Source: Acinetobacter sp. A47
GTDB lineage: Bacteria > Pseudomonadota > Gammaproteobacteria > Pseudomonadales > Moraxellaceae
Length of the DNA stretch: 64,000 bases
Assembly (NCBI RefSeq): GCF_000805455.1
Contig: NZ_JSUS01000001.1
Location: forward strand, 310,001-374,000
Direction of reading: 5' to 3'
Every line of letters begins with the position of its first letter. Position 1 is the stretch's first letter. Shown in pieces: positions 43,895 to 47,318 of this stretch. Under the pieces are notes generated by a model, which was not told the DNA's origin, made no database searches, and saw nothing but the letters and a program-made list of their open reading frames with translations. A program made the position numbers and the translations under genes.

Positions 43895-44729
43895 ATATCT
43901 TCATCACATAAGTGATTTCATGGTTGATACGGCGCACTTAACTCCATTGGAGGAGTGCTTCTATCGCCGTGCGATCGACTTTTATTACCTGAATGAAAAA
44001 CCATTACCCAAAGAAACCCAGTCGGTTTTTCGTCGGTTACGTGCAATAACCCAAGAAGAAAGGGAAGCTGTATTAAATGTGCTTCAAGACTTCTTTGTTG
44101 AGCTGGAAGATGGTTTTCACAATAAACGTTGTGATTCAGAAATTGCTGAATATCACCAGAATGCCAACAAAAACCGTGAAAACGGTAAAAAAGGTGGCCG
44201 TCCACGTAAAACAAAACCGAGCGAAAACCAAAACGAAAGCCAGAGTGGTGAATCTGAAAACCCAGAAAAAACCCAGTCGGTTTCTGTGGGTTCTGAAAGT
44301 GAAACCCAAAAAAACCTTAACCGTAAACCGATAACCGATAACCGTGAACCAAATATAAATACACACACACAGGGCGCAGGTGAAAACCCGGCTCAGGAAA
44401 ATTCTTGGGTACCAAATCCGGAAACCCTGTTGAACGTGATTCGCCAAAGCATGGGTATTCAAGCTGAACAAGTAATCGCTATGCCTGATTACGATTTTCA
44501 TCTCGGAAAGTTTAATGCCCACTGGGAAGACAAGAAGGATCTCACTGATAACCAGCGCACATACAAGTTTGCTACTTGGTTGATTGATGAGTTCAAGAAA
44601 CCTAAGGCACCTGTAAAACCGAAAACCCAGAAACCATCGAATACAGGCCGCAACGTCAACGATGCATGGGGTGATGTACAGGATTACCCACCTGCAGTCG
44701 ATGATATCGATACCGGGAGCATGCTATGA
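43887..44729 (+). CDS. DUF1376 phage replication protein
   Basis: 280 residues. The first 90 residues (MYKYLHHISDFMVDTAHLTP, EECFYRRAIDFYYL, EIAEYHQNANKNRENGKKGG) are the DUF1376 domain seen in replication initiators of lambdoid phages. A low-complexity, Glu/Asn/Ser-rich linker follows (about 100-180), and a C-terminal helical domain (YDFHLGKFNAHWEDKKDLTD) that probably contacts the helicase loader. It directly precedes the DnaC-like gene, as lambda O precedes P. Confidence 0.85.
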   Translation: MYKYLHHISDFMVDTAHLTPLEECFYRRAIDFYYLNEKPLPKETQSVFRRLRAITQEEREAVLNVLQDFFVELEDGFHNKRCDSEIAEYHQNANKNRENGKKGGRPRKTKPSENQNESQSGESENPEKTQSVSVGSESETQKNLNRKPITDNREPNINTHTQGAGENPAQENSWVPNPETLLNVIRQSMGIQAEQVIAMPDYDFHLGKFNAHWEDKKDLTDNQRTYKFATWLIDEFKKPKAPVKPKTQKPSNTGRNVNDAWGDVQDYPPAVDDIDTGSML

Positions 44730-45475
44730 ACGCATTTGCTAATCAACTGAGTCAGAAAATCACAAGTACAAATCGTTTTTGTGAAATACACAAAGAGCGA
44801 ATGATCAGCGTCAGCGGACGTGATTTCTGTAAAACATGCGCTATGAACGCATACAAGCGCGCCCAGGATGAACATTTCCAATCTGTAAACCAGATGGTTC
44901 GGGAAAAACACTTCGCCGGTGCAATGCTTCCGGATCGCCATGAGAGCAGCGGATTTAAAAATTATTCTGTTGGGAACATTGGCCAGAAGAATGCCAAAGG
45001 CCAATGTCATGCATTCGCAAAAGATTTTAATGCCGGCATTAAGCGCAATTTGATTATGGTTGGTCGTACCGGTACCGGGAAAACCCATCTGGCTTGTGCG
45101 ATTGCCCGCAACATTTTAGACCAACGCAGCTATGTCCGTTATACGACTTCTGAAGACATGGCAAACGAGATAGCCAATGCCTGGACTAAAACTGACGACA
45201 GCGAAGCAAGCGCCGTGTTCCGGTTCACTGATTACGATTTGTTAATCATTGATGAGTATGGCCTACATGATCAGCATGAGAGCCGGTTACAGCTTGTGCA
45301 CAAAGTTTTGTATTCCCGCTATGACGCCAAAAAGCCAACAGTCCTAATTTCAAACTGGACTGAAGCGCAATTGAAAGAAAGCTTGGGCGACCGTTTGTGG
45401 TCCCGCTTCCAACACGATGGCCTCACCGTTGTTGAGTGCAACTGGGCCGATGAGCGTACAGGTGGTGGCTTATGA
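44726..45475 (+). CDS. DnaC-like helicase-loader ATPase
   Basis: 249 residues. N-terminal Cys motif (FCEIHKE ... FCKTCAMNAY) binds zinc, as in some phage loaders. The AAA+ domain has Walker A GRTGTGKTHLACAI, Walker B DLLIIDEYG and sensor-like SNWTEAQLKESLGDRLWSRF. It should load the host DnaB at the phage origin. ATGA overlaps on both sides mean coupled translation with the DUF1376 gene and with dcm. Confidence 0.9.
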   Translation: MNAFANQLSQKITSTNRFCEIHKERMISVSGRDFCKTCAMNAYKRAQDEHFQSVNQMVREKHFAGAMLPDRHESSGFKNYSVGNIGQKNAKGQCHAFAKDFNAGIKRNLIMVGRTGTGKTHLACAIARNILDQRSYVRYTTSEDMANEIANAWTKTDDSEASAVFRFTDYDLLIIDEYGLHDQHESRLQLVHKVLYSRYDAKKPTVLISNWTEAQLKESLGDRLWSRFQHDGLTVVECNWADERTGGGL

Positions 45476-46479
45476 AACACCCATTGGACACGCAAACAAT
45501 AGATTGGATCGATTATCAAAAAAATTTAGGTGGCTTAAATGAGTTGGCTCTTTTCGCAGGCGCTGGTGGCGGAATACTCGGATCGCATCTCATGGGATGT
45601 ACAACAGTGTGCGCAGTTGAACGTGATGCCTACGCCGCACAAGTTTTGGCGCAACGACAAAATGATGGAATTCTCCCGGCTTTCCCAATTTGGTCTGACA
45701 TTAAATCTTTTGACGGAAGACCATGGCGAGGAATTGTTGACGTTATTTCTGGCGGATTTCCATGCCAGGACATCTCATCTGCCGGCAAAGGCGCAGGGAT
45801 CGATGGGGAACGTTCAGGACTTTGGTCAGAAATGGCACGAATTATCAGTGAAGTTCGACCTGGCGAAGTCTGGGTGGAAAACTCACCAATGCTTGTTTCC
45901 AGAGGACTTGCCAGAGTCATCAGTGACCTTGCCCAAATGGGGTATGACGCGCACTGGGCACGTTTTTCAGCATCTAACTTTGGAGCGCCCCATATCCGCG
46001 ACAGGCTCTGGATTGTTGCCTACTCCGTGCAGTCAGGAACGGGGCGGAGCACACACACCGGGATCACATCTGACTTTAACCAAAGCAGTCAACGGCTGGA
46101 CAAAGGGAAGAGTGGGGCAGAATCCCAAGGAGTGTCGAATTTATCCAACACCCAAGGCATCGGACGGGAACAAACGTGGGAAGGTCAGCAACCATCCAAG
46201 GAACGGTCTGGCAGGTGTAGTGGAGAATTTACCAACGCCAACAGCAACAATGAGCAAAGGTTCATCGCCAGCAGCATTAACCAGAAAGGATGGCAAGAGC
46301 CGGATCAACGATCGGCTGGATCATCATGTAATGAACTCGCATGGTGGGAAGTTGAACCCGGATTGGGTCGAGTGGCTGATGGGGTGGCCCATCGGGTGGA
46401 CAGACTTAAAGCCATTGGAAATGGACAAGTTCCAGTCGTGGCTAAAAGCGCATTCAAATTTTTAGGTGGTGGTCTATGA
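45472..46479 (+). CDS. dcm: DNA cytosine-5 methyltransferase
   Basis: 335 residues. Motif I LALFAGAGGGILGSH, motif IV GGFPCQDIS with catalytic C98, motif VI VENSPML (Asn in place of the usual Val after Glu-Asn), motif VIII IRDRLWIVAYS and motif X LKAIGNGQVP. A weakly conserved, probably target-recognition region lies about residues 185-290 and is Ser/Gln/Gly-rich. It should protect phage DNA from restriction. Almost its whole length is also open in the +1 frame (see 45539-46465). Overlaps both neighbours by 4 bases. Confidence 0.9.
   Translation: MKHPLDTQTIDWIDYQKNLGGLNELALFAGAGGGILGSHLMGCTTVCAVERDAYAAQVLAQRQNDGILPAFPIWSDIKSFDGRPWRGIVDVISGGFPCQDISSAGKGAGIDGERSGLWSEMARIISEVRPGEVWVENSPMLVSRGLARVISDLAQMGYDAHWARFSASNFGAPHIRDRLWIVAYSVQSGTGRSTHTGITSDFNQSSQRLDKGKSGAESQGVSNLSNTQGIGREQTWEGQQPSKERSGRCSGEFTNANSNNEQRFIASSINQKGWQEPDQRSAGSSCNELAWWEVEPGLGRVADGVAHRVDRLKAIGNGQVPVVAKSAFKFLGGGL
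45539..46465 (+). CDS. Overprinted +1-frame gene inside dcm
   Basis: 308 residues encoded in the +1 frame of dcm. ATG 45539 has AGGTGG five bases upstream. The protein itself resembles a phage family usually found next to methyltransferases: ADFHARTSHLPAKAQG, WKTHQCLFPEDLPESSV then TLPKWGMTRTGHVF, GSGLLPTPC, and the C-terminal GGKLNPDWVEWLMGWPIGWT then DLKPLE. The same DNA yields Dcm motifs IV-X in the other frame. I recall the WVEWLMGxPxGWTDL block from phage proteins; its function is unknown. Two conserved products from one stretch is unusual and is explained further under findings. Confidence 0.6.
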   Translation: MSWLFSQALVAEYSDRISWDVQQCAQLNVMPTPHKFWRNDKMMEFSRLSQFGLTLNLLTEDHGEELLTLFLADFHARTSHLPAKAQGSMGNVQDFGQKWHELSVKFDLAKSGWKTHQCLFPEDLPESSVTLPKWGMTRTGHVFQHLTLERPISATGSGLLPTPCSQERGGAHTPGSHLTLTKAVNGWTKGRVGQNPKECRIYPTPKASDGNKRGKVSNHPRNGLAGVVENLPTPTATMSKGSSPAALTRKDGKSRINDRLDHHVMNSHGGKLNPDWVEWLMGWPIGWTDLKPLEMDKFQSWLKAHSNF

Positions 46480-47318
46480 AACTCGATCATCCATTAATTC
46501 GATACCACGGCGGTAAATTCCGTTTGGCACACTGGATTATTTCTCATATGCCAAACCATATTTGTTATACGGAAGCATTCGGCGGAGCGGCCGGAGTTTT
46601 GCTTCAAAAGCCACGTGCTTATGCTGAAGTTTATAACGATCTCGATGGTGATATCGTTAATTTATTTGAAGTGCTTCGAGATTCTAGCTCGAGAGAAAAG
46701 CTTATTGAACAACTGGTTTTAACCCCATATAGCCGGGCAGATTTTGAAAAGGCTTGGGAACCTATCGAAGATAAAGTAGAACGAGCGCGCCGTGTTTGTG
46801 TCCGGGCGCAGATGGGGTTCGGTTCGGCCGGCGCAACAAAGGGTATTACCGGTTTTCGCATAGATACAAAGCGTCAATATGGAACAGCACAATCATTATG
46901 GGCTACTTATCCAGAACATTTAGGCATCATTGGCCAGCGCTTGAGTGGAGTACTCATTGAGAATCGGCCTGCAATCCAGGTGCTCAAAGATCATGATGGT
47001 GAAACTACACTTCACTATGTAGATCCACCTTATGTCATGGATACCCGCTATGACGGCGCCAAATCTGGTCGAATCTACCGTCATGAGATGAATGACCAGG
47101 ATCATCAAGAGTTACTTGAAACATTAACCAATCTAAAAGGGATGGTAATGCTTTCAGGTTATCCATGTGAACTATATGGCGATTTGCTGGTTGGGTGGAA
47201 ACGTATAGACACAAGTTCACGTATTTCAGCTGGGCGCGGTACGGCTTTGCGTACTGAATGTTTATGGCTAAATCCAGCTGCTCAAACTCCAGATTTATTT
47301 AAAGGATTGCAGGCATGA
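46476..47318 (+). CDS. dam: DNA adenine N6-methyltransferase (D12 class)
   Basis: 280 residues. Motifs in D12-class order: N-terminal PLIRYHGGKFRLAHWI, the AdoMet loop EAFGGAAGVLL, NDLDGDIVNLFEVLRD, and catalytic DPPY in LHYVDPPYVMDTRY. Target is possibly GATC, but this cannot be read from the sequence. It sits beside dcm in the same coupled operon; together they likely give broad protection against host restriction. Confidence 0.9.
   Translation: MKLDHPLIRYHGGKFRLAHWIISHMPNHICYTEAFGGAAGVLLQKPRAYAEVYNDLDGDIVNLFEVLRDSSSREKLIEQLVLTPYSRADFEKAWEPIEDKVERARRVCVRAQMGFGSAGATKGITGFRIDTKRQYGTAQSLWATYPEHLGIIGQRLSGVLIENRPAIQVLKDHDGETTLHYVDPPYVMDTRYDGAKSGRIYRHEMNDQDHQELLETLTNLKGMVMLSGYPCELYGDLLVGWKRIDTSSRISAGRGTALRTECLWLNPAAQTPDLFKGLQA

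Follow-up and report, generated by a model that had tools for sequence, protein, structure and literature searches.

A prophage cytosine-5 DNA methyltransferase that is probably made as two chains from overlapping frames of the same DNA

The dcm gene of a prophage in Acinetobacter sp. A47 shares nearly its whole length with a second open frame, and the locus is probably best understood, from the sequence comparisons described here, as one cytosine-5 DNA methyltransferase made as two polypeptides from the same DNA. The window analysed is a stretch of 64,000 nucleotides (RefSeq assembly GCF_000805455.1, contig NZ_JSUS01000001.1, positions 310,001 to 374,000), and coordinates refer to positions within it unless a relative is named. 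Our computations establish that both frames are under selection, that the C-terminal half of the +1-frame product is homologous to the recognition and motif IX region of single-chain phage Dcms, and that no such region is apparent in the Dcm chain. In the proposed enzyme, the dcm frame would supply the large domain, comprising motifs I-VIII (AdoMet binding and the catalytic PCQ) followed by a linker and then the helices of motif X. The +1 frame, initiated independently at its own ATG, would supply the small domain with target recognition and motif IX, and its N-terminal extension over motifs I-VI may aid association of the chains. The two chains would then assemble and methylate the phage DNA, probably against host restriction. 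Translation from the +1 ATG, assembly of the chains, their activity and their biological role are what we infer for this system.

Results

Organization of the locus

The dcm gene (45472-46479, + strand) encodes 335 amino acids, identified from the open reading frame, Pfam and a structural model as the large methyltransferase chain with motifs I-VIII, a linker and motif X. The +1-frame gene (45539-46465, + strand; 308 codons, 308 amino acids) is proposed, on the basis of its open reading frame, its relatives and the selection tests, to encode the recognition chain (target recognition domain, TRD, plus motif IX). A first-pass annotation, made from the nucleotide letters, had described two overlapping open frames sharing about 925 bases; both are open as claimed, on the same strand, and have 927 bases in common. 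Direct reading places a Shine-Dalgarno-like AGGTGGTGG at 45460-45468 (+ strand) before the dcm ATG and a Shine-Dalgarno-like AGGTGG at 45528-45533 (+ strand), five nucleotides 5' of the +1 ATG, just where that annotation had reported it. The +1 peptides that it quoted are present as well, and the WVEWLMG block and the RVADGVAHRVDRLKAIGN of Dcm are encoded by the same bases. The upstream neighbour is an IstB/DnaA-like ATPase gene (44726-45475). The downstream neighbour, which is context outside the proposed system, encodes a D12-class adenine methyltransferase (46476-47318, + strand; Pfam PF02086, 1.2e-13). Promoter-like sites (2 vs 4.1 in shuffles) and terminator-like sites (5 vs 2.6) were counted and none was taken as meaningful.

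The Dcm chain

Residues 26-274 of Dcm match the Pfam DNA_methylase family (E 2.8e-35), and P97, C98, E136, N137, R176 and R178 are invariant among 88 aligned Dcms. The chain carries the cytosine-5 methyltransferase motifs I, IV (PCQ), VI (EN) and VIII, and 205 of 215 loci have motif X inside the dcm ORF; Pfam, the alignment and the invariant residues agree with the earlier listing of motifs I, IV, VI, VIII and X. The catalytic core, motifs I-VIII, was assigned by alignment to residues 22-185 (45535-46026, + strand). A model of the chain, built with 88 of 101 picked sequences, is confident over residues 21-190 (block-mean pLDDT 83-98), and a Foldseek search with it returned M.HhaI (E 1.7e-14) and M.HaeIII (E 4.3e-14) over about 170 columns at 27-30% identity. 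Residues 193-304 mostly have a pLDDT below 50 and no secondary structure, and across 46013-46342 the dcm frame is mostly predicted to be unstructured (block-mean pLDDT 36-50, residues 191-310). Residues 305-331 are helical in the model (block means 50-90); the alignment and the model place RVADGVAHRVDRLKAIGN and the motif X helices at 46360-46464 (+ strand). Between motifs VIII and X the dcm chain has 29-256 residues, with a median of 85 over 205 loci. The model, this gap length and the codon-position rates given below all indicate that the dcm chain itself holds no recognition domain and no motif IX. In M.HhaI and M.HaeIII, as far as the available text of PMC3404938 describes them, most motifs lie in the large domain while the variable region and motif IX lie in the small domain, and the two frames split the enzyme along this same line. 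M.HhaI and M.HaeIII share the large-domain fold with Dcm, but each is a single chain with the recognition domain and motif IX in frame.

Selection on the two frames

The +1 frame is a conserved coding frame under selection of its own, as confirmed by its openness, by a cross-validated profile and by codon-position rates. When synonymous codons were permuted within dcm, the +1 frame was open in none of 20,000 sequences (mean 5.6 stops), and when codons were drawn from eight other genes of the window it was again open in none of 20,000 (mean 9.6 stops). The claim that 308 open codons are unlikely to arise by chance therefore stands against 40,000 null sequences of two kinds. In a set of 205 loci with related sequences, selected because motif X lies within their dcm ORF, the +1 frame is open over motifs I-VIII in 197 vs 10.5 expected from permutations (17 stops vs 582) and over VIII-X in 203 vs 69.9 (3 stops vs 232), the first 4 and last 28 codons of the frame being omitted from the stop counts. 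The eight loci that are not open (L004, L242, L246, L252, L253, L256, L257 and L340) are all distant. At the first of these, in phage Bloom, a DNA cytosine methyltransferase has been annotated in both frames (L004, 2007-2711), while in Paenibacillus phage Shelly (L005, 2007-2711) the second frame carries the label 'g55 internal gene' from its depositors.

The training set for a profile was the 149 loci of a single 55%-identity cluster, and the other 56 served as test loci, each compared with 100 permutations that preserve dcm. The true +1 frame scored above all 100 permutations in 50 of the 56 loci for the I-VIII part and in all 56 for the C-terminal part; for the N-terminal region, the median best permutation reached 140.9 bits vs 190.6 observed. 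In five canonical phage methyltransferases used as controls, the longest +1 stretch was 108-189 codons and none contained the C-terminal half. Weak +1 matches were found in these controls to the C profile (four of five, over motifs VI-VIII, E 1e-5 to 2e-3) and to the N profile (three of five, E 3e-4 to 1e-3). Over the catalytic core the +1 similarity is therefore in part a passive echo of Dcm, and the argument over motifs I-VIII rests on the permutation tests, not on raw similarity.

Substitution rates were obtained from 253 pairs from 107 loci, with 59 gene pairs for the flanking genes (0.185/0.135/0.402 at codon positions 1/2/3). In the dcm frame the rates at positions 1/2/3 are 0.082/0.034/0.199 over motifs I-VI, 0.131/0.044/0.170 over VI-VIII, 0.509/0.258/0.268 over VIII-X and 0.187/0.088/0.158 at the IX/X end. 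Because dcm position 1 is +1 position 3, the VIII-X region evolves as +1 coding sequence with the dcm frame as passenger, and motifs I-VI evolve mainly as dcm. When each locus entered a single pair (54 pairs, counts that take no account of relatedness among the loci), position 1 exceeds position 3 over VIII-X in 47 of 51 informative pairs, with the reverse in 3, and position 3 exceeds position 1 over motifs I-VI in 51 of 51. The codon rates and permutations thus describe the N-terminal part of the +1 product (residues 1-98; 45539-45832, + strand), which lies over dcm motifs I-VI, as follows: dcm dominates there by codon rates, yet the I-VIII part is conserved beyond dcm in the test loci counted above. 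Stops appearing in the +1 frame of related dcm genes and a lack of suppressed synonymous change had been named in the first-pass annotation as signs against a second gene; we tested for both, and the results bear out neither.

The +1 product

Searches with the +1 product gave nothing above cut-off in Pfam (best YhdP, E 0.048) and no match in NCBIfam. It does match PHROG 1008 (E 1.6e-25). That family, compiled by other workers, also takes in a split mycobacteriophage enzyme through its second ORF (E 2.4e-95) and a single-chain Dcm through residues 261-418 (E 3.5e-56), and it independently links the +1 product with the single-chain enzymes. The C-terminal half consists of LPTP repeats and LNPxWVEWLMGWPxGWT. 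It matches the in-frame VIII-X region of Shauna1-like single-chain Dcms in hmmsearch (E down to 2e-13), and hhalign against 26 single-chain Dcms (Shauna1, PFR2 and 24 viral contigs) gave a probability of 98.3 and an E of 1.2e-14. Judged by these profile comparisons, the C-terminal half is homologous to the recognition and motif IX region of single-chain phage Dcms. Its LPTP-rich recognition region (residues 159-268; 46013-46342, + strand) is marked both by this homology and by the reversed codon-position rates, and sequence and profile comparison places a motif IX-like LNPDWVEWLMGWPIGWTDL at 46346-46408 (+ strand). In a whole-length alignment of single-chain Dcms with canonical methyltransferases at lowered stringency, RLAAAFPEWMMGWPAGWV faces the motif IX RKLTPRECWRLQGFPDWAF. 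Direct comparison of the +1 motif IX profile with five canonical methyltransferases found nothing; the motif IX link passes through the single-chain enzymes. Four of these were scanned with the Pfam model, which spans IX and X in PFR2 and ends near VIII in the other three. A model of the +1 protein (125 of 129 picked sequences) was weak, with a pLDDT of 60.4 and no fold match, and we therefore claim no fold for it; two matches in a PDB sequence search with the +1 profile (E 0.46 and 1.4) were taken as chance. The N-terminal part has no known relative.

The annotation had offered a partner of Dcm as one identity for the product, and this is the best reading, given the homology of the C-terminal half to a region that the Dcm chain lacks. 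Its other suggestion, restriction evasion, is plausible for a methyltransferase of a phage. A restriction endonuclease was considered and rejected, since no nuclease family of Pfam, PHROG or NCBIfam matched. At three E. coli loci the neighbours were inspected for a restriction enzyme; they are prophage genes, none of them so annotated.

Start of the +1 gene

In at least 151 of 215 loci the dcm start codon stands 4 nt before the +1 ATG (NTGA-ATG), a low count, as some loci classed 'other' (e.g. L057) have NTGAATG adjoining. The +1 ATG follows TTAA in 17 of 215 loci, where dcm starts elsewhere; 15 of these 17 have a Shine-Dalgarno-like core before it, scored with a permissive pattern that had no chance control. 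The remaining start contexts are other (23), no nearby ATG (13) and no N-terminal part (11). Where dcm starts with NEL, all 177 loci use AAT for Asn-2, the codon that gives rise to the +1 ATG, and Asn in the flanking open frames is AAT in 2157 of 5275 cases and AAC in 3118. Similarly, TAT encodes the Tyr of GYDA in 72 of 79 cases vs 1560 of 3724 in the flanks. These flanking counts come from open frames of at least 150 codons rather than checked genes, and the loci are phylogenetically non-independent. Six of ten distant loci inspected (L242, L246, L252, L253, L256 and L257) have a +1 frame that opens only 115-175 nt within dcm, so the stretch reaching back to the dcm start may have been added later.

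Alternative explanations

Several other accounts of the two frames were weighed. Ribosomes might start at dcm and slip into the +1 frame after motif VIII by programmed frameshifting, giving a fused chain of motifs I-VIII, TRD and motif IX, with the upstream +1 frame not translated by itself. The mycobacteriophage enzymes of Bumblebee11, Artemis2UCLA and Krili, which are two overlapping ORFs in the same register with motif X in the second, and Shauna1, which has everything in one frame, lend this some appeal. It is nevertheless improbable, because 197 of 205 loci have the +1 frame open upstream of the slip, with more conservation than dcm accounts for in 50 of 56, the codon making the +1 ATG is kept at every NEL locus, and a fused chain would be without motif X, which 205 of 215 loci have in the dcm ORF. 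We consider equally improbable an independent anti-restriction or regulatory phage protein that is merely co-located with dcm. Overlapping genes are described, in the available text of PMC6195259, as coding for functionally unrelated proteins, and the N-terminal part lacks known relatives; but the C-terminal half is homologous to exactly the Dcm region missing from the Dcm chain, and no copy apart from dcm was seen among the 350 best-match loci.

Less probable still is an inactive Dcm chain, with the pair as a relic or decoy: an unstructured linker is predicted to replace the recognition domain, but the six catalytic-core residues named above are invariant in 88 Dcms and dcm-frame selection is strong over motifs I-VI. 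Least credible of all is an open +1 frame that is a passive by-product of the Dcm sequence and its codon usage. The weak echoes in canonical methyltransferases and the bit scores reached by N-region permutations are what such a by-product would give, but none of the 40,000 null sequences was open, 197 loci are open vs 10.5 expected, and the codon-position rates are reversed over the recognition region. The preferred reading is therefore the two-chain methyltransferase.

Comparison with other cytosine methyltransferases

The small chain of M.EcoHK31I is reportedly encoded in another frame within the gene of the large chain. The available text of PMC3404938 assigns motifs I-VIII and X of this enzyme (YGGCCR) to the large chain and motif IX to the small chain, and that of PMC3439449 calls it naturally split. 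Here the motifs are divided between the two products in the same way. In that printed description, however, the predicted recognition domain of M.EcoHK31I is in the large chain, whereas the recognition region here is in the second frame. The second frame moreover spans nearly all of dcm, starting 4 nt past the dcm start codon in at least 151 of 215 loci, and the system of the window lies in a prophage and adjoins an adenine methyltransferase. As the recognition region is placed differently, we regard the system as a variant of the M.EcoHK31I type and not a member of it. M.AquI (CYCGRG) is described in the available text of PMC3404938 as a natural two-chain cytosine-5 methyltransferase split at the variable region, with motif X in the small chain; here motif X is in the large chain in 205 of 215 loci, so that IX and X are not together in the small chain, and dual coding extends across nearly the whole gene. 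Natural and artificial cytosine-5 methyltransferases split between motif VIII and the recognition domain are functional according to the available texts of PMC3404938 and PMC5944983.

The Shauna1-like Dcms (Shauna1 gp67 and PFR2; split in Bumblebee11, Artemis2UCLA, Krili and KHumphrey) have a homologous LPTP-rich region and an EWMMG motif IX, but in them a single frame holds the recognition region, IX and X, which either continue from I-VIII in a fused chain or form a separate second ORF. Arthrobacter phage KHumphrey gp42 and gp43 (L426, 1363-1971 and 1952-2419) are both annotated as DNA methyltransferase, and its +1 ORF at 1712-2416 matches the recognition profile (E 1.6e-19). The same +1 arrangement as in the window, with motif IX in the +1 frame, is seen in E. 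coli phage K1ind3 (ORF30/ORF29) and in the E. coli prophage Dcms L440-L442, with motif X in dcm by profile in L440-L442 and by eye in K1ind3. These E. coli systems are distant, and K1ind3 has no match to the +1 N-terminal profile. Depositors labelled K1ind3 ORF29 'Mte8-like', and a literature search did not find the source of the label. Among the top matches of a search of the open-licence literature, no description of a phage dual-frame overlap of this kind was found.

Distribution and origin

In tblastn, the +1 product found relatives in 78 of 50,697 phage records, 8 of them covered to at least 80%; the nearest annotated phage is Acinetobacter phage vB_AbaM_ABMM1, with 74% identity across the whole product. 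Among viral contigs at least 598 relatives were confirmed of 600 stretches listed, and in a genome scan 247 of 257 stretches were confirmed, with titles from Proteobacteria to Planctomycetota, Verrucomicrobiales and Clostridium bins; the best 80 of each were used. In the genus of the window 9 of 175 genomes have a match, including the window's own. A viral contig with an identical +1 product is probably the same prophage.

By profile, 348 of 350 loci, taken as best matches from named phages, viral contigs, genome contigs and genomes of the window's family and containing many repeats, have the +1 product over dcm in the same +1 register. The two exceptions are L225, with a broken dcm frame, and L346, with no match; within the 348, L340, L347 and L350, from one genome, have motif IX in the dcm frame. 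From 344 usable loci, 215 remained below 90% identity and 205 of these have motif X in the dcm ORF, so the two-frame form is present in about two hundred distinct loci. These loci are the best matches of longer lists, and rarer forms could be missed. The annotation had tied the lack of stand-alone homologues to the stops and synonymous changes discussed above as joint grounds for abandoning a second gene; none of the 350 best-match loci has a stand-alone +1 gene, as that argument supposed, and the accompanying signs did not appear.

The suggestion that the second gene was born inside dcm holds for the N-terminal part over motifs I-VI only. This part looks overprinted on dcm, and several of the most distant relatives lack it or have it interrupted. 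The C-terminal half, in which the +1 frame is dominant, is by sequence comparison of common ancestry with an in-frame Dcm region, and origin de novo, which would leave no outside homologues and a frame that is not dominant, fits the N-terminal part alone.

With slightly less confidence than for the locus itself, we think it likely that phages have a large and old methyltransferase family whose catalytic and recognition subunits are encoded in two frames of one stretch, typically of 700-1000 nt. The selected frame would switch along this stretch, from dcm over the core to +1 over the recognition region and both over IX/X, with dcm reduced in the recognition region to a linker that keeps motif X, and +1 extended back over the core. 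Such encoding would lock specificity and catalysis together genetically. Two-protein cytosine-5 methyltransferases are already known; if the reading is true, the two-frame form in these two hundred or so loci would give double-stranded DNA phages a long same-strand dual-coding region of very wide conservation. Annotation usually keeps one frame, so that half of the enzyme would then go unnamed in many records of phage methyltransferases. It would also explain the apparent absence of a recognition domain from phage Dcms of this group and would allow the evolution of overlapping genes to be tested on an easily assayed enzyme.

Some individual loci depart from the general pattern. At the Gallionella bin locus L225 (2385-3484) the dcm frame is in two pieces within motifs I-VIII. 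One relative from the window's genus (L031, 3000-3907; L431, 1500-2407; genome G113) has WVEWLMG in the dcm frame, and its motif X is found in a third one, which would fit an indel close to motif IX that moved both; sequencing error is possible. The best segment of the contig L382, compared with L353/L359, is 99% identical to Shauna1 gp67, yet its recognition region and motif IX are in the +1 and not the dcm frame, by frame switching or assembly error. In K1ind3 (L355) no +1 signal rose above the permutations over motifs VI-VIII. Single-chain Shauna1-like genes (L353 2792-3119, L356 1756-2020 and many of L359-L419) also carry a +1 segment SETxP-SGMTR-LPTP over VI-VIII, which mostly scores higher than shuffles that preserve dcm; for the +1 segment over VI-VIII in 21 distant loci, z is 2.9-5.9 in 20 and the score exceeds every one of the 200 permutations in 16. 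On the chromosome of E. coli PT62, two methyltransferase genes of this kind (L441, 2256-3242 and 5214-5951) lie some 2 kb from each other among phage-like genes, and both have the +1 frame.
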